From the IMG/VR virus record IMGVR_UViG_3300043448_000296, positions 1 through 58,398 of that record: 58,398 nucleotides of DNA; one strand, given 5' to 3'. The notes below the pieces were generated by a model. It searched no databases. It saw nothing but the letters and a program-made list of their open reading frames with translations, and was not told the origin of the DNA. The position numbers were made by a program, and so were the translations under genes. The DNA is from a virus. Positions 18,007-37,845 of the stretch are shown here, in pieces. The stretch's first letter is position 1; every line of letters starts with the position of its first letter.

Positions 18007-18417
18007 TCAGATGTCGCCTTCTACGCGGTTCTCGGAACGGTAAACATCGAAAGCACCCTCTGGGTATCGGGCGGTGAGTTTCATAACGTTCGTCACCACC
18101 ACTTCATTCAAGTCAACTCCCAGTCCGATAAGTGCTTGAGTGAAATACCAATACACATCCCCAAGTTCTTTGATAAGATGGGTGCGATTATCTTCAGTCA
18201 GTTCTTTACCTTGAAATGCAATCTTCTTTACAATCTCAGTGAACTCACCAGCCTCAGCAGTCAATCCAACAGCAGCAGTCATTAGACGAGCAATCGGAAC
18301 ATCACGCTCAGACAGTTGTTGAATGCGAGCAACAAACTCTTCATTACTCTTAGAGGGATAACTGGTGGTGCTATCCACAAACTGAGTATATTTAATTAGG
18401 TCAACTTGTTTTGTCAT
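18007..18417 (-). CDS. mazG: MazG-like nucleoside triphosphate pyrophosphohydrolase
   Basis: 136 residues. GLTAEAGEFTEIVKKI (EAGE, first metal-binding Glu pair) and ELGDVYWYF (ExxD, second pair) make up the MazG active site. The enzyme hydrolyses NTPs or dNTPs to monophosphates; in cyanophages it has been proposed to lower (p)ppGpp or clear unwanted nucleotides. It overlaps the helicase stop by 4 bases and so belongs to the replication operon. Confidence 0.85.
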   Translation of the reverse strand: MTKQVDLIKYTQFVDSTTSYPSKSNEEFVARIQQLSERDVPIARLMTAAVGLTAEAGEFTEIVKKIAFQGKELTEDNRTHLIKELGDVYWYFTQALIGLGVDLNEVVVTNVMKLTARYPEGAFDVYRSENRVEGDI

Positions 18418-19796
18418 AAAATAAAACTAGTAAATTTACTTTGCGTGTTTCTGCTTTGTTCTGCTGCCATCTCTTCAAAGTCGTATTCTTCTTCTTTATC
18501 AGAAGATAGGTCAACAGCGTTATCAACATTATAGAGCTTCATTCGTGCTCTGTCAACCCCAACCAAGAATCTCTTATATGCAGTAGGGTCATTATATCGA
18601 TTCTTTAATTGCTTGACCATAATCTTACCATCCTTCTCCAAATCTTCTGTCGATATAAGAGCAAACATGAAATCAGCAGTAGCAGGTAAACCAAAGGATT
18701 CCGAAGTATCAGTAAGATCCACGTCGCTATTGCCAAAACCACTACGGGTTGTTTGCGTCGCTGAGACAACAGGAACATTGTGTTCCACAGCAAGACCGCG
18801 TAACTCTTCAGCAATCGCTTTAACGTAAGTATAAGAATTGACGATAGCACCCTTGTACCTTGCGCTAGCACAGATGTTAAGGTAATCGATAAAGATGATA
18901 TCTGGTTTAAACGTCTTCTTGAGTTGAAGTTCGTTAAGAAGAGATTTGAAGTGACCGACATGTGCTGATGCTGTAGGATATTCTTTGATAATAAGACGAC
19001 CCTGAGTTTTACGCTTCAGTTCATTGATGCGACTTTGGAAGATTGTCTCAGGCAAATCCACAAGGTCTTTGATATTGACGTTAAACAGATTAGCATCAAT
19101 ACGTTCAGCAATCTTTTCTTCTGCCATTTCCATAGTGATGTAGAGAACGTTGCGACCCATCGACAAACAATGAGCAGCAAGGTCACACATAAAGAGTGAC
19201 TTACCTACACCAGTGCCAGCAAGAGCAACATTGAGTGTCTTGTTTGGCAGACCACCCTTGGTAATCTTATTAAAGTATTCAAGATGGAATGGAATCTTAT
19301 CTTCTTCACGATGGTAGAACTCATATCGCTCTACACTATTCTCTAGATAATCGTGACCTACATGTTCGTCGAACGATACTGCCAGGGCCTCTTGAAGGAT
19401 TGCTGGAATCGCATCCTTTGATACTTTCGGATTGCCTCCATCCGCGACCTTGATTGACTCAAGGAGGGCGAGGTAAATTGCTCTGTCCTTACACCACTTC
19501 TCTGTGGTGTCGAGCAACCAGTTGTATTCGATTGGGTCGGTAGATAACTCAGCAATCGTTTTAACCGCGTTTTGATATACTTCCTCATTTAAATCTTTCC
19601 TACTTTCAAGGTTAATTGTCAATACTTCTTTGGTGGGAACCAGTTCATAATTGCTAGCAAAATTCCAGACCTCTTCATAGATTACACGTTCGTGAATCTC
19701 ATTGAAGTAATCTGGTTTTACAAAAGGAACAACCTTCCTGTAGAACTGTTCGTTACACAGAAGGTTGCGTAAGATTGTTGTTTCAATTCTCTCCAT
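18414..19796 (-). CDS. gp41: Replicative DNA helicase gp41 (DnaB family)
   Basis: 460 residues. N-terminal helical domain, then the RecA-like core with Walker A GTGVGKS (194-200), [17 protein letters not shown], Walker [10 protein letters not shown] and [12 protein letters not shown] (DnaB motif 4 type). It is the 5'-3' helicase moving on the lagging strand with gp61. It overlaps uvsX by 14 bases and mazG by 4. The acidic C-terminus ([17 protein letters not shown]) may be the primase/clamp contact. Confidence 0.92.
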
Positions 19797-28719: not shown

Positions 28720-28917
28720 TTAAATTTCCTTGATAACGGAATCTATTTGGTTAGTATAGCACCTTGTCACGATGTAGTCAACCTCTGTAATGTAACGGCG
28801 ACCAAGATAACAAGGAATGTGGTTGCCACTGTGAAGTTCCATCACTAGGCACTTGATTAAAAAAACACCCCCATCCGTCAGGCGAATGAGGGTGTGGCGA
28901 GGGAGATTATCAAACAT
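28720..28917 (-). CDS. Doubtful small ORF (65 aa) spanning terminator and promoter
   Basis: The frame starts at an ATG sharing its A with the stop of the CobS-like gene (TGATG), which supports coupling. However, codons 8-20 are a terminator hairpin with T-tract and codons 46-55 are an excellent sigma-70 promoter. It could be a real gene carrying both signals or simply an intergenic region that stays open. Sequence: hydrophobic VFLIKCLVMEL then YLGRRYITEVDYIVTRCY. Confidence 0.35.
   Translation of the reverse strand: MFDNLPRHTLIRLTDGGVFLIKCLVMELHSGNHIPCYLGRRYITEVDYIVTRCYTNQIDSVIKEI
28753..28781 (-). promoter_or_regulatory. Sigma-70 promoter for the clamp/clamp-loader operon
   Basis: Minus strand TTGACT (28781-28776), 17-base spacer ending in TGC (extended -10), TATACT (28758-28753). 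Expected start about 28746. It would drive DUF3310, gp45, the Cys-rich gene, gp44, Dam, gp62 and regA up to the terminator at 24617. Confidence 0.85.
28859..28895 (-). terminator. Intrinsic terminator after the CobS-like gene
   Basis: Minus strand ACACCCTCAT pairs with ATGGGGGTGT (one T-G wobble) around an 11-base loop, followed by seven T residues. It lies 22 bases past the CobS-like stop codon. Confidence 0.85.
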
Positions 28918-30014
28918 CAGAGAGTTTCAACAGTCAGTTCAGGTTGAGTGGTTTCGGTAGGTTGAGCATCAATGGAAGCATCAATCTTGGAATACAATTC
29001 CATGAAGGATTGTTTGGTCTCATCATCGAAACGAGCAATACACACTTCGATTGCTTTCTTGCGCTTGCCGAAGATGCTGAAGGCGCGGATAACATGAACA
29101 AGGCGGCGAGTGGAAATGATTTCGTCAACACCACCATCGTAGAAGGTCTTACGAATAATCTCTGCCCATGCAACCAGACGACCCACAAACTCTTCATCGT
29201 AGCAATTCAGCGACTCAGAAGCTTTCTTGAGAATAGCAGTTTCTACTTTAACAGTAGGATATGCTTGCTCGAAAGTCACAGGGAAACGCTCAAGGAATGC
29301 TTCGTTGAGAACGTTAGTGCCGATGAAGCGACCGTCATCGCTACCCTTACCTTTGGTGTTGGCAGTAGCAACAACGTTGAAACCAGCAGCGGGTTTGACA
29401 TACTTGCCGATCTTCTTCAGGAAGACACCCTTACCCTCAAGCACAGATTGCAGGCAAAGGATTTTGTTAGAGGCAAGGTCAATCTCATCCAGCAGCAGAA
29501 TAGCACCGCGATTCAGTGCCTGCACCACAGGACCATCGTGCCACACGGTCTCACCGTTGACGAGACGGAAACCACCAATCAGGTCATCCTCGTCGGTCTC
29601 AATAGTGATGTTGACACGAATCAGTTCACGCTTCAATTGAGCACAAGCTTGCTCCACACCGAAAGTTTTACCGTTACCAGAGAGACCAGTGATGAAGATA
29701 GGATAATACTGGCGAGAAGAAAGAATCTTTTTAATATCACTAAAGTTACCAAAGCTGACGAAGGAAGCATCTTTCGCAGGAATAAAGTTTTCGGGATTTT
29801 CGACCACAGATTCTACAGCAGGTTGATTATAAGTTTGCTCCAGTTGCTCGATAGCAGTGAGGTGCCACATACCGCGATGCACTTTAAACTGATCCAGTTT
29901 TTTAGTGAGAGTTTGGTAGGACATACCAATCTCATCAGCATAAGTGCGAAGGTCGGCGGCAGTAACAACAGAACCAAAGCGGTCAATCAGTGGGGCGACT
30001 TCAAAGTTTTTCAT
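28917..30014 (-). CDS. cobS: CobS-like / MoxR-type AAA+ ATPase
   Basis: 365 residues from ATG 30014; an upstream in-frame start would lie inside the promoter. Residues 10-60 are a small helical DNA-binding-like domain (ADLRTYADEIGMSYQTLTKK). AAA+ core: Walker A GLSGNGKT (110-117), Walker B ILLLDEID (172-179), VVATANTKGKG sensor 1. Named for cobaltochelatase CobS, but the partner gene is a VWA/metallopeptidase, so a MoxR-like chaperone role is more likely. Own promoter at 30040. Confidence 0.88.
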   Translation of the reverse strand: MKNFEVAPLIDRFGSVVTAADLRTYADEIGMSYQTLTKKLDQFKVHRGMWHLTAIEQLEQTYNQPAVESVVENPENFIPAKDASFVSFGNFSDIKKILSSRQYYPIFITGLSGNGKTFGVEQACAQLKRELIRVNITIETDEDDLIGGFRLVNGETVWHDGPVVQALNRGAILLLDEIDLASNKILCLQSVLEGKGVFLKKIGKYVKPAAGFNVVATANTKGKGSDDGRFIGTNVLNEAFLERFPVTFEQAYPTVKVETAILKKASESLNCYDEEFVGRLVAWAEIIRKTFYDGGVDEIISTRRLVHVIRAFSIFGKRKKAIEVCIARFDDETKQSFMELYSKIDASIDAQPTETTQPELTVETL

Positions 30015-30039
30015 GGTGTGGGTCGTTTGGTATGTAGAT

Positions 30040-30068
30040 ATTATAGGGCAAAAGGGGTGGGGGCGCAA
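30040..30068 (-). promoter_or_regulatory. Sigma-70-like promoter for the CobS-like gene
   Basis: TTGCGC (30068-30063, loop of the hairpin below), 17-base spacer, consensus TATAAT (30045-30040). The -35 matches only the TTG. Start expected near 30033, 19 bases before the ATG. Confidence 0.6.
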
Positions 30069-30075
30069 GCCCCCA
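30058..30075 (-). terminator. GC-rich hairpin after the VWA gene
   Basis: Minus strand TGGGGGC-TTGC-GCCCCCA, perfect 7-bp stem; four T residues follow only after CCCC, so it is a weak terminator or a transcript-end stabiliser. It lies 9 bases past the stop of the VWA gene. Confidence 0.55.
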
Positions 30076-30084
30076 TTGATCAGA

Positions 30085-32229
30085 TCAGCTGATGAGTGTG
30101 GCGAAGGAGGTCAGCATCTTCTTATTGACGCCTTTCTTGGCAAGTGCTTTTTTAAATGCAGTGCCAATCTCTTTGCTGGTAGCATCCTCATCCACATCAA
30201 ATTCGCTATTCGCAGATAGCGAATCAGTGCCCATCAGGTAGAGTGCCTGATAACCAAGATGCTCAACAAGTTCAGCGGACTTGTTTTTCTTCCACTGCTT
30301 TTGAACCTCGTCATAAGGAATCTTACACTCATCAGCACGATAAGTATCATTCAGACCGCGACCATTCACAAGACGAATACCGATAAGGTTTACATCAGGA
30401 AAACGGTCACGCACATTCTGAAGAAACACTTTGGTGATTTTATCAGAATTACCATAGTAACCACCATCATCAAAGCGAGGATACACACGACCAGTTTTAC
30501 GGTCGCGCAGAACACAATCGCTACTCACATAGCTAGTGCCAAGGCGAGAACCATAACTACGGTCAGTGTAATAGTTGATGCTGGCAGATTCACCGTCAGT
30601 CAGAATAATAACGTTGGTCTTTTGAACCTTGTTACGCTTCTGAAAGGCAGGGATAAGTGCGGTCAGAGAGATTGCTGCCTCGTGCAGAGGAGTACCAGAC
30701 AGACCATAACCAGCAGGAATAGAGTAACCAGAATAACTACCGTTCCCAACCACAAGACGCCAGAAGTTTTTAAGTTGTGCTTCAAGGTCTTTGCCGTTAC
30801 GACCGTTGCTGCTGACAAGATTCAGCATGTTGAAGTGATCGCACAGTTTGACTTGACCCACCGTAGGAGTTTGAATGCGAGGAGATTTTGTACGAGTTTG
30901 AGTAACGTAATCGTAGGTTCGGTGATACCAATAGTCATTGGTGAAAGCATAGATGTCAAAAGGAATCTGCACTTTTTTACAGAACCATGCAAGGTTCAGC
31001 AGTTGCTTAGCAGTATCCTCAAGGATACCACCCATAGAACCAGACCAGTCAAGGATAAAAATCAAACCGTGATTCTTACCATCAGGCACCACATTGATTT
31101 TCTTGAATACATCTTCATTCCACTTGTAGGTATGAAGCAGTGCAGTATCAAGGATGCCAGTTTTAGCAGTAGATGCACGGGCATACTGGTCTGCCGACTT
31201 ACGCATCTCAAACTCTTTGACAAGGTAGTTAACCTCACGTTGAGCTTCCGAACGAAAAGTCAGATACTGTTTGTCAACCTCAGCAAACACACGGGAGGTT
31301 TGCTCATTGAAACAAGTATTGCAATCTTCCTGCACTTGCTTGTTAGAGACAACAATGTTATCTACTTTGAGGTCAGGCAGCTCAATATAGTTGAGGTGTT
31401 GAGAGCGAGGATACTGACTAATCAGTTGTTTCTGATTCTCAGTGAATGCCTTGTCAGTTTCAGATTCAAGCGTATTGGTTTGACCAGCACCATTGGATGC
31501 ACCTTCGCCTTGCTCATCTGGTTGATCGGAATCAGCACCCTTAGTTTGGTTGCCGTCACCAGAAGTTTGCTGAGGTTGCTCACCCTCACCATCGGTAGAG
31601 TCACCCTCACCTTGAGTAGAATCACCCCCACCTTGAGTAGATTGCTGAAGATCGCCTTGCGCCTCAACAACCTGCTGTTGCTCCTGTTGCTCAGTGTAAG
31701 CAAGAATCTTGCGAGCAACATCTACAACTTGCTCAAAGGTTTCAGCGTTGGCAAGTTCATCTACGATATCTTTCTCTTCAGCACTCCAAGCGAACACTTC
31801 ACCAGCATGAATGCCAATCTTAAAATAAAGATTTACGCGGTCAATCAGAGCGTAACTATCCAGCTCACGGCCGCCAATGCAGAAGAAATCATCATCCTGC
31901 AGTTCTTTGTAACCAGCATAGAAGTTACGGGCAAGACCAGGAAACTTACGCTTCATCAGTTTCTCAATACGAGCATCCTCACAGACATTCAGATACGACT
32001 GAGGAATGCCATAGTCATCACCCCACTTGTCGGGGGTATACAGAGCGTGACCAACTTCATGCCCCACGAGCATATCGTATACGTTGGCGGATGCTTTCTC
32101 CCACATCGGCAGGGTCAGCACACGGTCTTTCACGTTGAACATCGCCGTCTCTACAGGGCGATGCTCGATAATAAGGTTCTCAGTGGCGAGAAGGCGAGCA
32201 AGATTGCCCTTGACTTCGGCGTTGAACAT
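30085..32229 (-). CDS. VWA-domain protein with N-terminal zinc-metallopeptidase domain (CobT-like)
   Basis: 714 residues from ATG 32229. HEVGHALY (57-64) is a zinc HExxH site, with NVCEDARIE (82-90) a likely third ligand Glu. Residues 180-260 are a Gln/Gly/Asp/Glu-rich linker. A VWA domain starts around 388 with the MIDAS DWSGSMGG (394-401) and a later IILTDGES. CobT proteins also pair VWA with a CobS ATPase, but here the front domain looks like a protease. Inferred: ATP-driven remodelling or cleavage of a virion or host protein. Confidence 0.85.
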   Translation of the reverse strand: MFNAEVKGNLARLLATENLIIEHRPVETAMFNVKDRVLTLPMWEKASANVYDMLVGHEVGHALYTPDKWGDDYGIPQSYLNVCEDARIEKLMKRKFPGLARNFYAGYKELQDDDFFCIGGRELDSYALIDRVNLYFKIGIHAGEVFAWSAEEKDIVDELANAETFEQVVDVARKILAYTEQQEQQQVVEAQGDLQQSTQGGGDSTQGEGDSTDGEGEQPQQTSGDGNQTKGADSDQPDEQGEGASNGAGQTNTLESETDKAFTENQKQLISQYPRSQHLNYIELPDLKVDNIVVSNKQVQEDCNTCFNEQTSRVFAEVDKQYLTFRSEAQREVNYLVKEFEMRKSADQYARASTAKTGILDTALLHTYKWNEDVFKKINVVPDGKNHGLIFILDWSGSMGGILEDTAKQLLNLAWFCKKVQIPFDIYAFTNDYWYHRTYDYVTQTRTKSPRIQTPTVGQVKLCDHFNMLNLVSSNGRNGKDLEAQLKNFWRLVVGNGSYSGYSIPAGYGLSGTPLHEAAISLTALIPAFQKRNKVQKTNVIILTDGESASINYYTDRSYGSRLGTSYVSSDCVLRDRKTGRVYPRFDDGGYYGNSDKITKVFLQNVRDRFPDVNLIGIRLVNGRGLNDTYRADECKIPYDEVQKQWKKNKSAELVEHLGYQALYLMGTDSLSANSEFDVDEDATSKEIGTAFKKALAKKGVNKKMLTSFATLIS

Positions 32230-32252
32230 CGGTCTCTTTCGTTGATGAATCA

Positions 32253-32281
32253 ACTATACAGCAAAGGGGTCGCCGCAGCAA
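32253..32281 (-). promoter_or_regulatory. Sigma-70-like promoter for the VWA gene
   Basis: TTGCTG (32281-32276), 17-base spacer, TATAGT (32258-32253). The -35 lies in the hairpin at 32265-32286. Start expected near 32246. Confidence 0.5.
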
Positions 32282-32286
32282 CCCCT
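32265..32286 (-). terminator. Hairpin after gp46
   Basis: Minus strand AGGGGTTGC-TGCG-GCGACCCCT, nine pairs with one wobble, followed by TTTGC; weak T-tract. It lies 7 bases past the gp46 stop. Confidence 0.6.
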
Positions 32287-32292
32287 GTTAAG

Positions 32293-34017
32293 CTATTCTG
32301 ATGTTTCGTCTGTGACGTATGAGAAGTTCTTATGCTTCTCAAATCGTAGGCAGCGGTCAAACTTGTCTGCCATATTGTCACGGTGAGAGATAACAAATAC
32401 ATTTGTTTTGTCATCAAAGGTTTTGAGAATCCATCCGAGGTCGCTGTTACCAGATTGGTCTAGCGACCCGTCAAAGATTTCATCTAGAATCAGAAGATTA
32501 GTATCCACGCTATTCTTAAGTTTAGCAACGCTACGCCAAGTAAGCAGCAGAGCAATATCGATTCTAGCTTTTTCTCCTTCAGAAAAAGATTCATAACTAA
32601 ACTCATCCCGATAACGTGATTTGATTACCTCTTCAAAACTTTCATTGAGCATGAACGATGCTGGAAATTCCATCTTATCAAGGTAGTCATTGATAAGCTT
32701 GTTCATCGTCGGGAGGTATTTTTTGATGATGCGCGTTTTGATGCCCGAGTCCTTGAGAAGTTGTGCTGCCGTGAGTAAGCAATCTTTTTCTTCTTTTGTT
32801 TCTGAAATTGTTTCTTGGATTTGCTTTCCATCCTCACTGAGGGATTTAAGTATTGAAAACTGTTCGCGTTGATTGACATCTGAATCCCGCAGTTTTCGGA
32901 TGTCGTCGTCCAGTTCTTCAATTCGTCTATGAAGTGACTTAATTTCATTATTGAGTTGTCGATTCTTTAGATTGAGTTCGTTTATTTCATCAATCAAAAG
33001 AATAAAGGTATTCTCTTTACTTTGAAGATCGGAAAGTTGTTGTCCCAAATCAGACATAGCTTTTTCCACCTCAACAAGTTTATCCGAGAGAACTTGGATC
33101 TTCTCTTGTTTAAAATGCTCCTCAATGTTTTGTCCACAGGTCGGACACGTATCGTTCTGCTCAAAGAATACTTTTTCTTTATTATGTGACTTTTGTTTGG
33201 ACGATATTTTGTTTCGTAACGAATCGACCTTAGCAATCGTTGCTTTAATTTTCTGCGTGTCTGAAACGGCAGTGGTCTTAGTGTCGATTTCCTTGTCGTT
33301 ATCGATGATTTGTGATTCATAATCTAGAGCTTCTTTTAATAGAGATTCTTTTCTATTCTCTTTTTCTTGAATGTCTTCTTTATTCTTCTTTTCAATGTCA
33401 AGCATAAACTGCTTCTGCATGTCAATCTTCTCTTTGACTAGAGACAGTTTATATTCGTGATCTTTAAGTTCGTCGTTGATTACTTTAATTTTTTCTTTCA
33501 GATTGACATTCATTGTTGAGAAGATTTGGATGTCAAGAATGTCTTCAATAATTTCTCTGCGAGCAGCAAGAGGAAGACGCATGAATGGCACAAAGGTCGA
33601 TGACCCTAGCACAACAATTTGAGTAAACGATTTATAATTCATCTTCAGAATCGTTTGCTCAAAATGTTTCTGCTGGTCTACAGCAGAAGAATCTTGGTTA
33701 AGTAGAGCACCATTCTGATAGATTTCAAACTTCGCTGGTTTGATACCACGAATCACTTTGTATTTATTATTACCAATATCAAAGTTAACTTCCACAACAC
33801 AATCACTCTGATTGATTGAGTTGAGAAGTTGTGGTTTGTTAATCTTTCTAAATGGTTTGCCAAACAAAGAGAAAGTGAGAGCATCCAGAATGGTTGACTT
33901 TCCAGCACCATTAGTTCCCACAATCAAACTACTTTTCGCATCAGTAAGAGATACTTCAGTAAACTGAGCACCAGTAGAAAGAAAATTTTTCCATTTAATC
34001 GTCTTGAAAATTATCAT
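32293..34017 (-). CDS. gp46: Recombination endonuclease subunit gp46 (SbcC/Rad50-like)
   Basis: 574 residues from ATG 34017. Walker A GTNGAGKS (34-41), a long coiled-coil region broken by a zinc hook CPTCGQ (about 290), an SFSEGEKARIDIALLL signature motif and Walker B NLLILDEIF. With gp47 it resects DNA ends and feeds UvsX recombination and replication restart. It overlaps the DUF3110-like gene by 23 bases. Confidence 0.93.
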   Translation of the reverse strand: MIIFKTIKWKNFLSTGAQFTEVSLTDAKSSLIVGTNGAGKSTILDALTFSLFGKPFRKINKPQLLNSINQSDCVVEVNFDIGNNKYKVIRGIKPAKFEIYQNGALLNQDSSAVDQQKHFEQTILKMNYKSFTQIVVLGSSTFVPFMRLPLAARREIIEDILDIQIFSTMNVNLKEKIKVINDELKDHEYKLSLVKEKIDMQKQFMLDIEKKNKEDIQEKENRKESLLKEALDYESQIIDNDKEIDTKTTAVSDTQKIKATIAKVDSLRNKISSKQKSHNKEKVFFEQNDTCPTCGQNIEEHFKQEKIQVLSDKLVEVEKAMSDLGQQLSDLQSKENTFILLIDEINELNLKNRQLNNEIKSLHRRIEELDDDIRKLRDSDVNQREQFSILKSLSEDGKQIQETISETKEEKDCLLTAAQLLKDSGIKTRIIKKYLPTMNKLINDYLDKMEFPASFMLNESFEEVIKSRYRDEFSYESFSEGEKARIDIALLLTWRSVAKLKNSVDTNLLILDEIFDGSLDQSGNSDLGWILKTFDDKTNVFVISHRDNMADKFDRCLRFEKHKNFSYVTDETSE

Positions 34018-34282: not shown

Positions 34283-35332
34283 TTACACTACCTCACAACT
34301 CTCAATATATAGTGACTTCATTACACTCTTCAACTTTGCTTTGTCTACGGCAATCTCTACCTCATCAATATATTCATTAAGAAGTGTAAGAGTATCTTTA
34401 ATTTCTGCATTCTCATCATCTTCAACAAACGCATCGTTGACAAGAGTTTCAATAATCTTTACATCATGTGGTTGAGTTGCAAAGACAGAATCAACAAACT
34501 TTTCAAACTCAGTATAATCTTTTTTATCTTCTACGATAATCTTGACAAAAGAATTTGCACACTCACTGGTATTGAAGCTGAGATGAGAACCAGTAGAATC
34601 ATTATAATAGATTTTCTGGAAAATCTCATAAGGGTTCTTGACCCGCTTGAGTTTATTTGTTGTCGGTTCATAGAGATGAAATCCTCGCTCGTCTTTATAA
34701 TCGTTCCAGAACATCTGGTAAGGGTTGCCCAGGTAAGTGATGTTACCTCTGGATGATTTGTGATGATAGTGACCAGAGAATACTTGTTTAAACTTTTTGA
34801 ATATGGAAGGGTCCATTCCATGCTCCTGTTTATTGCCAGGAGTTACTTCAAAACCAGATAGTTCAAGATGACCCATAGCAATCTCAGCACTGGTATCATT
34901 AATCCAACGCATTGTCTCTTCGTAGTTAGAAGAGTTAATCCAAGGCAACATCAGAATCTTAGCACCATCAATCATTACTGTCTCTGGGCGAGAGTAGATT
35001 TCGATGTTGCTAAAGTCCTTGAGTAGAAGTTCGGGTGAGTTAATCTCGTTCGTATTCTTATAGTAGGTGCAGTGATTGCCAAGAATCATGTGAACGAAGA
35101 TACCCATATCTTCAAGGCGTTGAAAATAATAACTACGCACACGGTTCCAAACATTGAAATCAATCCCCTTACGATTATCAAACGTATCACCGAGGTCAAT
35201 AACAGTTTTGATTCCATGTCTCTCCAGTGTTGGGAAAAAGATGTCGTCGTAGAATTTTTTGAAGTATTCCCAGAACGCAACACTACCTTTTCTCCCGTCT
35301 AAATGCTGGTCGGTAATAAGAGCTACTGTCAT
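34283..35332 (-). CDS. gp47: Recombination nuclease subunit gp47 (SbcD/Mre11-like)
   Basis: 349 residues. Metallophosphoesterase motifs: TDQHLD (7-12), LGDTFDNR, ILGNHCTYY (GNH), GHLELSGFE and SGHYHHKS (GHxH). The set is complete, so the nuclease should be active with manganese. Partner of gp46. The start overlaps the gp55 stop by 4 bases. Confidence 0.93.
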   Translation of the reverse strand: MTVALITDQHLDGRKGSVAFWEYFKKFYDDIFFPTLERHGIKTVIDLGDTFDNRKGIDFNVWNRVRSYYFQRLEDMGIFVHMILGNHCTYYKNTNEINSPELLLKDFSNIEIYSRPETVMIDGAKILMLPWINSSNYEETMRWINDTSAEIAMGHLELSGFEVTPGNKQEHGMDPSIFKKFKQVFSGHYHHKSSRGNITYLGNPYQMFWNDYKDERGFHLYEPTTNKLKRVKNPYEIFQKIYYNDSTGSHLSFNTSECANSFVKIIVEDKKDYTEFEKFVDSVFATQPHDVKIIETLVNDAFVEDDENAEIKDTLTLLNEYIDEVEIAVDKAKLKSVMKSLYIESCEVV

Positions 35333-35844
35333 CGCTTGCTTCGCATTTCAAGGTTTTCTTTGATGCTGTTCATGTCAGCACTGCTGCTATTATATCCTAT
35401 CATGTCACCACTGTAACTATCTGTATGCAAAACTTCATCATATCCTGACCGTTCAAGAATCTTGGATTTGATTTCTAGTTGTTTTTTCTCACGTTGAATC
35501 CTACGCAAGAAAGCATAATAGATAATCTGAGTGAAGTAAGCAAATGGATTGGTTGATTTCTCTGGATTAAAGTTATCAATATACTGCAGACAATTTTCAA
35601 TACCATCACAAATCATATCTTCCCTAAACATGTAGTTGACAAAGTTAGGTTTGTATGATAGGTGTGTAGCAATTTTAAGAAAACACTCTCCAATATAATT
35701 AGGAACTTTAGGTTTGGATAGACCTGCTTCTTTAGCAGCAGCAACCTGCTGTCGATACACCATCAGGGCATCGAGGAACTCTCGGTTGTTGACGTAATTT
35801 TCTTTTGTAGTTCGTCTACCCATCGGCTTTTCGACTGTTAACAT
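35329..35844 (-). CDS. gp55: Late sigma factor gp55
   Basis: 171 residues. Sigma region-2-like segment with EDMICDGIENCLQYIDNFNP and NPFAYFTQIIYYAFLRRIQRE is the recognisable core that reads the TATAAATA late element. It directs host RNA polymerase to late promoters together with gp45, consistent with the many NATAAATA elements in this window. Expressed from the minus-strand promoter at 35868-35896. Confidence 0.92.
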   Translation of the reverse strand: MLTVEKPMGRRTTKENYVNNREFLDALMVYRQQVAAAKEAGLSKPKVPNYIGECFLKIATHLSYKPNFVNYMFREDMICDGIENCLQYIDNFNPEKSTNPFAYFTQIIYYAFLRRIQREKKQLEIKSKILERSGYDEVLHTDSYSGDMIGYNSSSADMNSIKENLEMRSKR

Positions 35845-35867: not shown

Positions 35868-35896
35868 ATTGTAACATACCCAACGAGAATTGTAAA
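35868..35896 (-). promoter_or_regulatory. Sigma-70 promoter for the gp55 operon
   Basis: Minus strand TTTACA (35896-35891), 17-base spacer, TACAAT (35873-35868). Expected start about 35861, 17 bases before the gp55 ATG. Its -35 is 5 bases from the -35 of the opposing promoter. Confidence 0.75.
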
Positions 35897-35901
35897 GGGG
35901 C

Positions 35902-35930
35902 TTGACACAACTCTTAAATCCGTATATAAT
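35902..35930 (+). promoter_or_regulatory. Consensus sigma-70 promoter on the plus strand, facing against the genes
   Basis: TTGACA (35902-35907), 17-base spacer, TATAAT (35925-35930): both hexamers and spacing are exactly consensus. There is no plus-strand gene downstream; it points into the 3' end of the Sm-like gene at 35946-36365. Confidence 0.85.
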
Positions 35931-35936
35931 AGCAAT

Positions 35937-36035
35937 GTTGCGCCTTCAAGATTTATTATATATCTCTTCTAATAACTTCTTAGCTTCTTTAATAGACCCT
36001 AGATAACCTTCATGGCTTCTAGGGTTTTGTCTTTT
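35937..36035 (+). ncRNA. Candidate small antisense RNA
   Basis: Starting about 7 bases after the plus-strand TATAAT, a roughly 99-base transcript is predicted. It is A/U-rich in its first 55 bases, then forms a hairpin ACCCTAGA (35996-36003) with TCTAGGGT (36018-36025) and ends in TTTTGTCTTTT. Promoter, A/U-rich body and hairpin plus U-tail match Hfq-type bacterial small RNAs. It is antisense to the last about 30 codons of the Sm-like protein gene. Expression is inferred from signals only. Confidence 0.6.
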
Positions 36036-36365
36036 ATTATTTGATTTAGGTTTAGGGGAATTTCTTTTTTTATATTTTGATTTGTCTTCTAGATGTTCTT
36101 CATAACAAGATGCAATCTTAGAATCAAGTTCCGTCATAGTAATAATTTGACAACGAGGAATAATAAACATATCTTCATACGTTGCATTAATCCAATCATC
36201 AAATACAATACCTTCATAGATTAAATTATTTTTTCTTTCCTCAACCTTTTCAACTAAACGAGGTTCTAAAACTACAATAACATCATCATTTGGATCGTAA
36301 CTAACTTTAGCTACAATCTCTTCGCCAGAAGTTAATTTAATAGTTGCATAAAATTCTTCTTCCAT
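35946..36365 (-). CDS. Sm-like small protein, copy A, with basic tail (139 aa)
   Basis: 139 residues. YATIKLTSGEEIVAKVSYD, VVLEPRLVEKVE, DMFIIPRCQIITMTELD, KIASCYEEHLE resembles the short-strand pattern of the two copies upstream of gene 43, consistent with an Sm/Lsm fold. The C-terminus (KKRNSPKPKSNNKRQNPRS) is basic and likely binds RNA or DNA. It lies 1 base from uvsW; the 3' end is crossed by the candidate antisense RNA. Confidence 0.6.
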   Translation of the reverse strand: MEEEFYATIKLTSGEEIVAKVSYDPNDDVIVVLEPRLVEKVEERKNNLIYEGIVFDDWINATYEDMFIIPRCQIITMTELDSKIASCYEEHLEDKSKYKKRNSPKPKSNNKRQNPRSHEGYLGSIKEAKKLLEEIYNKS

Positions 36366-36366
36366 A

Positions 36367-37845
36367 TTATTTTAAATCGAGTTTGATGATTTCTACATTA
36401 AACTTTTCTTCTTCATATATTTTCAAACGCTCATCTAAATGTTTCAGCGTATAATTTTTCTGTGGTGTTCTGCAATACTCATCGGCAATGTCATAAAGAG
36501 TAGCGTAAGTTTTATTATTGCCCTTACGCAATACACGACCGATAGATTGTAAGTTTCTTACTCTTGATTTTGATGGTGAAGCAAATACAACATTGTGTAG
36601 ATTACGAATGTTGATGCCAGTGCTGAATGTTCCGTATGAAGCAACAATCACTGCGTTGTTTTCAGTTTCAGTGATGCGTCTAATCTCTTCGCGTTCCTCT
36701 GTATCTACACCACCATAGACCAGAAAAACTTTACGACCTTCTTCGACAATACTATTTATTGCCTCGTAAAGTGGCACTCCATGACGCTCCACATAGTTGA
36801 ATAAAACTAGGGAGTTTCCTTCTAAGTCACGCACAAGATTTTTAATTAGACGATTACGTTTTGGATTGTCAACAATTGCATCAATCTCTCCTTGATAATC
36901 AAAGAACTCCATTCTCTCATGCTTCAGCAAAAGAACTTTGATTCTGAAATCAGATAGATGACCTTCCTTAATAAGCTTCTCTGTCTTGGTAACATGCTTA
37001 CACTCACCAAACAATCCTTCTAGCACCCACTTGTGAGTAGCAGAACCATCCAGTGTTCCAGTGAAACCAAACCTATACTTAGCTTCATGTAGTTTAGTCA
37101 TGATGCCAGTGAGTGATTTGGATTTGAATAGGTGTGCTTCATCACCGATGACACAGGAAAAGTCATCAAACCAACGTTTAGGAAACTTGTAGATAGATTG
37201 CCAAGTGGAAATGATAACTGCTTTCTCTACGTTTTTATCTTTTCCACCATATATTCTATGACAGTAGCTATCAGTATCCCAACCATAGTCGGCAAAATCA
37301 TTATACATTTGCTCAACAAGCGAAGTGGTAGGAACAATAATGAGCGTTTTCTTACCCGTCTTTTTGTATTCTGAGGCATAGTAATACCTAACCAAAGAGT
37401 AGATCATCAGGGATTTACCTGATGCAGTAGGCGACAAAAGTAACCTGCGGTTATTTAGAAGTGCTTCGTATACTGCTTGCACTTGATAATCTCTTGGGTT
37501 ATGATTCGGACACACAGCCGCCATGAATCCTTTGACACCTTCTAAGGTAATCTGGTCGTTCTTTTCTTCTACATCTCCGTAGAACTTATTGGGTTCGTAT
37601 GAAATAGAATAGTTTTTGATATCACACCATTCTTTCAGGTGTGAGATTAAACCACAATATAGTTCACCTGTTCCTGGTGAATACAATCTAATCTTGCCAT
37701 CCCACATACCACTTCTATACTGTGGCATAAACTTGGCATTAGGAATGTCGAACGTAAAGTAATCTGCTAATTCGTAATGAACATGAGGTTCTGCTTTGAT
37801 AGTCAGATAAATGTTGTTCTTTTTTGCAACTGCCAGATTTGTCAT
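36367..37845 (-). CDS. uvsW: UvsW recombination helicase
   Basis: 492 residues. SF2 helicase with N-terminal substrate-recognition domain, Walker A SPTASGKS (138-145), DEAH box in VIGDEAHLFK, GFTGTLDGS and C-terminal motifs ATYGT-like SYGTFSTGINI and QSIGRVLRKG. In T4 it unwinds branched DNA and R-loops and shifts replication from origin to recombination mode. Shares one base with the uvsY stop. Confidence 0.92.
   Translation of the reverse strand: MTNLAVAKKNNIYLTIKAEPHVHYELADYFTFDIPNAKFMPQYRSGMWDGKIRLYSPGTGELYCGLISHLKEWCDIKNYSISYEPNKFYGDVEEKNDQITLEGVKGFMAAVCPNHNPRDYQVQAVYEALLNNRRLLLSPTASGKSLMIYSLVRYYYASEYKKTGKKTLIIVPTTSLVEQMYNDFADYGWDTDSYCHRIYGGKDKNVEKAVIISTWQSIYKFPKRWFDDFSCVIGDEAHLFKSKSLTGIMTKLHEAKYRFGFTGTLDGSATHKWVLEGLFGECKHVTKTEKLIKEGHLSDFRIKVLLLKHERMEFFDYQGEIDAIVDNPKRNRLIKNLVRDLEGNSLVLFNYVERHGVPLYEAINSIVEEGRKVFLVYGGVDTEEREEIRRITETENNAVIVASYGTFSTGINIRNLHNVVFASPSKSRVRNLQSIGRVLRKGNNKTYATLYDIADEYCRTPQKNYTLKHLDERLKIYEEEKFNVEIIKLDLK

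Follow-up and report, generated by a model that had tools for sequence, protein, structure and literature searches.

The stretch of DNA analyzed here (the window, 58,398 nucleotides) is part of the genome of a T4-like cyanophage (Kyanoviridae), whose nearest named relatives at the gp55 locus are Syn1 and S-RIM44, with about 71% DNA identity. Three genes lie at this locus on the minus strand. The late transcription sigma factor gp55 is encoded at 35329..35844 (PHROG 234, E = 6e-69), an Sm-like protein at 35946..36365 (PF16243 Sm_like above the curated cut-off; PHROG 471), and, upstream and in the same direction, the uvsW helicase at 36367..37845 (PF21241 UvsW_N together with helicase domains). 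All of the annotated cyanophage records examined, except the distant B23, have uvsW, Sm-like, and gp55 in that order on one strand. The Sm-like protein is called 'methylamine utilization' in many cyanophage annotations, but it actually has a PF16243 Sm_like domain, and its C-terminus has a conserved GYLGS-KEAKK-LE motif. Judging from this domain, an RNA-binding role is possible for a protein encoded beside an antisense RNA. The earlier note on this DNA had placed all genes from about 3 kb rightwards on the minus strand, and this is so, overlapping shadow ORFs excepted. Two pairs of long antiparallel ORFs are found at 28917-32301, one combining 28917-30068 (minus) with 28944-30092 (plus) and the other 30085-32253 (minus) with 30259-32301 (plus). 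From synteny with Syn9, the minus-strand ORFs are probably the genes, and the plus-strand ORFs look like shadow ORFs.

The gap between the Sm-like and gp55 genes is 101 bp long and contains an antisense promoter and the gp55 promoter facing it. The antisense promoter, on the plus strand at 35902..35930, consists of a -35 box, TTGACA (35902-35907), a 17-bp spacer, and a -10 box, TATAAT (35925-35930). It had been described in the earlier note as an exact consensus, and 12 of 12 positions do match. The exact TTGACA-17-TATAAT occurs twice in the whole 58-kb window, and the antisense promoter is one of the two matches. The other, at 18528-18556 (minus strand), is inside a 460-residue ORF (18414-19796) which is helicase-like and precedes a MazG-like gene; the spacer of this match is also kept in contigs of class A (the window's own lineage), which may reflect coding conservation.

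Homologous loci were fetched by similarity of gp55 and the Sm-like protein, and the DNA element played no part in the selection. A promoter with at least 10 of 12 matches at a spacing of exactly 17 bp was present at all 119 distinct loci obtained in this way, compared with 1.9% of shuffled gaps; in this and the other locus counts and conservation tests, the loci are related, not independent, and kinship was left in the statistics. The mean pairwise identity over the 119 loci is 99.7% for the -35 box, 82% for the -10 box, and 49% for the spacer; the 20 bases following the -10 box have 61%, and the DNA further downstream has 38%. When the set was enlarged to 174 loci, some of them found by pattern, the -35 box is TTGACA in 173 and the spacing is 17 in 174. 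The promoter is present in named isolates including S-PM2, P-SSM2, Syn1, and Syn9, with the predicted antisense start at NC_008296.2:123698 (minus) in Syn9 and AJ630128.1:84439 (minus) in S-PM2; the version in ACG-2014f is TTGCCA-17-TATAAT, and MA10, with a gp55 that is 45% identical, has a weak version only. Thus, the hexamers, whose loss in relatives the earlier note had suggested looking for, are retained family-wide. When the window's own 91-bp element was searched as DNA against phage records, only chance-level matches were obtained, because class A has no close isolate. As judged by its conservation, the antisense promoter is a real element with a predicted function, near-universal in the T4-like phages of Synechococcus and Prochlorococcus.

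The gp55 promoter, TTTACA-17-TACAAT with an extended TG, was identified by sequence on the minus strand at 35868..35896, back to back with the antisense promoter. The -35 boxes are separated by exactly 5 bp, as had been noticed earlier. Among the 174 loci, the separation is 2-10 bp in 144 and 16-28 bp in 14, the boxes overlap by 7 bp in 10, and the sense promoter is uncertain in 6. Seven named phages have an overlap of the two promoters of 7 or 16 bp: the gp55 -35 box shares most of its bases with the antisense -35 box in P-SSM2, P-TIM68, and S-ShM2, and the promoters interlock by 16 bp in Syn9, S-RIM2, S-RIM12, and S-SCSM1. Scores for the gp55 promoter are only 6.5-8.5 in about 10 of the 174 loci, where it is weaker or doubtful. 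Its -35 box is TTTACA in 70 of the 174 loci, and at many loci, it makes up an inverted repeat with the antisense -35 box, TGTCAA...TTGACA. The gap between the boxes appears to be stepwise (-16, -7, about 5, about 16, and 21-28 bp), with approximately one helical turn per step. This may mean that both promoters keep to a fixed face of the DNA.

The predicted antisense RNA extends on the plus strand over 35937..36035, from a start 7 nt past the -10 box to the end at a U-tract, and is about 95-100 nt in length. It spans the last 29 codons and the stop codon of the Sm-like gene, consistent with the earlier description of it as antisense to the last codons. The terminator hairpin (plus strand, 35994..36027) has a 10-bp stem, 35994-36003 with 36018-36027, and a 14-nt loop, and behind it is a U-rich tract, TTTTGTCTTTT (plus strand, 36025..36035). 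Although a terminator had been correctly proposed here, the stem is not of 8 bp and about 65 bases past the start, but of 10 bp, including one G.U pair, and 57 nt past the start.

The hairpin is supported by covariation and by codon-constrained tests. A terminator is seen in 63% of class A loci, compared with 12% of shuffles. Nine or ten of the 10 stem pairs are present in 16 of 19 close loci, and in 18 distinct aligned class A rows, 94.4% of the stem cells are paired, with 16 double-change cells, compared with 5.0 in shuffles. When codons were redealt within columns with each protein kept, 0.05% of trials reached the observed stem pairing and none of 2000 reached the observed Watson-Crick pairing, kinship being left in this and the other stem tests. 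The stem suits the antisense RNA better than the sense RNA: 33 stem cells are G.U in the antisense RNA and 4 are A.C. The U-rich tract in class A also contains more T than synonymous codons predict. Thus, the stem is kept in class A with compensating changes above the codon null, beyond the needs of the protein code, which was the comparison suggested in the earlier note. One locus, L084, has lost the standard 5' arm and has a shifted 5' arm, and the branch of L109 and L110 has a different terminator, slightly further downstream. No other strong terminator was found on the plus strand within 8 kb. On the evidence of these tests, the class A terminator is under selection.

The 100-nt RNA as a whole folds with an energy only slightly below that expected (z = -1.75), and Rfam gave no family at the gathering score in the window, with one chance-level match. 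A coding role of the plus-strand RNA was rejected, since no conserved ORF with a start site was found in it. The absence of a protein product is part of the anatomy of an OOP-like RNA, as is a promoter of its own on the strand opposite a gene, which is also found here. An intrinsic terminator of its own is found in the window and at most class A loci, but not in class B or five named phages. Hence, the complete small-RNA gene that had been proposed, with a promoter, a body of about 57 nt, and a terminator, is supported for class A but is not a general feature.

What, then, is common to the family? The terminator frequency in class B is that of shuffles (11.7% for both), and no terminator was found within 1.5 kb in S-PM2, P-SSM2, Syn1, S-ShM2, and S-RIM12, so that a family-wide terminator was rejected. 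Cyanobacteria are not known to have Rho, and so the transcript outside class A may be long or may be ended otherwise. With no terminator above chance outside class A, the family-wide feature is the antisense promoter together with the first 13 or so transcribed bases, which are conserved. From this distribution, the small RNA is a lineage-specific addition, and the promoter is family-wide. The pattern points first to control of the initiation or timing of gp55, and only after that to action of the RNA on the Sm-like mRNA.

The conserved start region, AGCAATGTTGCGCCTTCAAG (plus strand, 35931..35950), contains the predicted start, G35937, and in class A genomes the block is repeated at another early promoter. 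This block, which follows the -10 box, is approximately AACnCTGTnnnGGnTTCAAG in most lineages and AGCAATGTnGCGCnTTCAAG in class A. Among the 80 matches listed for the exact pattern TAACTCTGTCAAGGGTT, 77 are at the gp55 site and three are before another gene. The exact pattern is found in L210, L217, and L223 behind TTGACA-17-TAAACT, on the coding strand, before a gene starting MAAIPVNIVVDR. Whole-record scans of eight phages gave one antisense copy at gp55 in seven of them, and six of these seven have one or two further copies on the coding strand; P-SSM2 has the gp55 copy only. The whole record of P-TIM68 contains no copy within 3 mismatches, and its antisense promoter hexamers are present. 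Each of the five class A contigs examined has exactly two copies. The second copies are located at G001:46239, G002:168161, and G003:149460 (L354, L356, and L357, respectively), and at AJ630128.1:162737, GU071105.1:16507, NC_008296.2:52741, and NC_070962.1:208836. The extra copies examined precede small early-type genes, nblA, or a small-gene/tRNA operon (a 62-residue gene, then tRNA-like genes). The variants of the start block are alike within one genome and different between genomes.

By sequence comparison, such a distribution is that of a working promoter module. Given the pattern of copies, initiation is the best-supported common function. Both hexamers and the 17-bp spacing of a host-sigma-type early promoter are present, and the matching copies before early-type genes suggest that the antisense promoter is used early. 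A role of the start region as a trans-acting seed is disfavored, since coding early transcripts share the start block. Strong promoters also occur elsewhere in cyanophage genomes. A consensus promoter is found on the minority strand around 1460-1720 in L359 (G003) and around 1590-1850 in L360 (G002), where its target is a local small gene on the reverse strand (MTHYKPYSAEWHRKRY...) that is similar to the Syn1 gene Syn1_017. The candidate second reverse-strand promoter in contigs G002-G004 turned out to serve this local gene, and the Syn1_017-like early gene seems to have changed strand in the G002 and G003 phages.

The sequences thus contain a conserved promoter, interlocked with that of gp55, and in class A a selected terminator. 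From these, we infer transcription, its timing, promoter competition, and RNA pairing. The best explanation, to which we give a probability of about one half, is that an early antisense promoter delays gp55 by competition, with the addition of an OOP-like RNA in class A. The plus-strand site would be a real host-sigma-type early promoter, firing antisense in the gap between the Sm-like and gp55 genes. Polymerase on the stronger antisense promoter would keep a second polymerase off the gp55 promoter, and the antisense traffic would run into transcription reading through from uvsW and the Sm-like gene; both the timing and the relative strength of the promoters are predicted from the consensus match only. 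Since the -35 boxes abut or overlap, the two promoters should exclude each other, and from the size of the polymerase footprint, two polymerases would hardly fit together there. The late sigma factor would then be held back early in infection and released as host-type initiation fades. In class A, the transcript would stop at the selected terminator to give the 95-100-nt RNA, whose pairing partner could be the 3' end of the Sm-like mRNA, by analogy with lambda OOP and cII. That the promoter and first bases, but not the RNA body, are conserved family-wide favors initiation as the common function. However, the conserved start region exceeds the needs of pure promoter competition, which is a point against this explanation, as are the weaker or uncertain gp55 promoter at some loci, the relatedness of the loci, and the strong promoters elsewhere in the genomes. 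We put forward tentatively, as a possibility with the odds against it, a promoter-exclusion switch that times the late sigma factor, in which the early antisense promoter, one of a few in each genome that share a start sequence peculiar to that genome, would keep the gp55 promoter shut off as long as host-type initiation lasts, and to which one lineage added a terminator to give a small antisense RNA.

Alternatively, the RNA itself could be what is selected, a cis-antisense RNA whose pairing to the 3' end of either the Sm-like mRNA or an Sm-like/gp55 read-through mRNA directs cleavage or decay, with the closeness to the gp55 promoter being incidental. The strand bias of the selected class A terminator, the different terminator in the L109/L110 branch, and the conservation of the first bases are in accord with this, and both OOP and aQ provide precedents (PMC12197685). 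However, terminators are not above chance outside class A, with none within 1.5 kb in the five named phages, the RNA body is only 38% identical, and the same 5' end is found on protein-coding early transcripts and so is not specific to the antisense RNA. This makes selection on the RNA somewhat unlikely. T4 has R-loop replication origins, with a promoter-made primer RNA, and UvsW removes such R-loops. The antisense promoter, which is strong, is followed by A/T-rich DNA, and adjoins uvsW, might make the primer for an origin of this kind, and there is, besides the T4 precedent, a prediction of a single theta origin for Syn9 (PMC2984593). Nevertheless, a terminator only 57 nt beyond the start is ill-suited to a long primer, and matching promoter copies precede ordinary early genes. 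The GC skew of Syn9 is monotonic, with no turn at 123.7 kb, although it is uninformative, as skew there follows the strand of the genes. We consider an origin improbable.

The inverted repeat could also be mainly an operator for a dimeric regulator, rather than two promoters. This would account for its formation by the -35 boxes in many loci and for a start region conserved beyond promoter needs, but the gap between its halves varies (-16, -7, about 5, or 16-28 bp), the gp55 side is TTTACA in 70 of 174 loci, and the antisense box retains its own -10 partner at exactly 17 bp. We therefore disfavor an operator in place of two promoters and give it little weight. In favor of a chance consensus match without function, weak promoter matches are plentiful in A/T-rich phage DNA (46 found, compared with 27 expected). 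The occurrence at 119 of 119 loci, compared with 1.9% expected, and the stem covariation above codon shuffles speak against it; for the promoter, the conservation already refutes a chance origin, whose probability we consider negligible.

The T4-like cyanophages do not have the motA, asi, alt, and modA/B genes of T4 (PMC2984593), which bears on how they order early, middle, and late transcription. No RNA at the gp55 locus was found in the literature searched, which took in neither Doron et al. 2016 nor Millard et al. 2010. The antisense promoter, near-invariant and interlocked with that of the late-sigma gene across the family, is a concrete candidate for a timing device. The locus further suggests that selection can act far more strongly on an antisense promoter than on its RNA product. 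In their abstract on the transcriptome of Syn9 infection, Doron et al. reportedly describe a new early regulatory element, along with middle promoters like those of the host; thus, the antisense start site or the conserved block may already be in their tables. If host-like promoters are middle, not early, the timing half of our model would shift with them.

Lambda OOP RNA starts in the gap between two codirectional genes. It is made from the promoter pO, is 77 nt long, and is antisense to cII (PMC12197685). The predicted RNA is like OOP in being a short antisense RNA from an intergenic gap, running over the 3' end of the upstream gene, with its own terminator. It is unlike OOP in that the phage is lytic, no sequence is shared, and the promoter is interlocked with that of the downstream gene and is kept without a terminator in most relatives. 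The RNA half of the class A system would work like OOP, and we do not claim membership of an RNA family. Another lambda antisense RNA, aQ, lowers the late activator Q (PMC12197685). The antisense promoter is similarly proposed to restrain a late-gene activator; however, aQ starts inside Q and is CII-dependent, whereas the start here is upstream of gp55, running away from it. In T4-like cyanophages, an antisense RNA of about 225 nt, CfrI, was shown experimentally at the psbA/homing endonuclease locus of S-PM2 (Millard 2010 via PMC2984593), and the reviews consulted name it as the antisense RNA of a T4-like cyanophage. The RNA considered here would likewise be an antisense RNA of a T4-like cyanophage, but it is predicted from sequence and lies at the Sm-like/gp55 locus, and so it does not correspond to CfrI as described there. 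Finally, the conjugation switch of plasmid pLS20 has overlapping divergent promoters (PMC4207663). Although no regulator protein or DNA loop is identified here and one of the promoters makes no protein, the gp55 locus resembles that switch in having two opposite promoters with overlapping or abutting sites.
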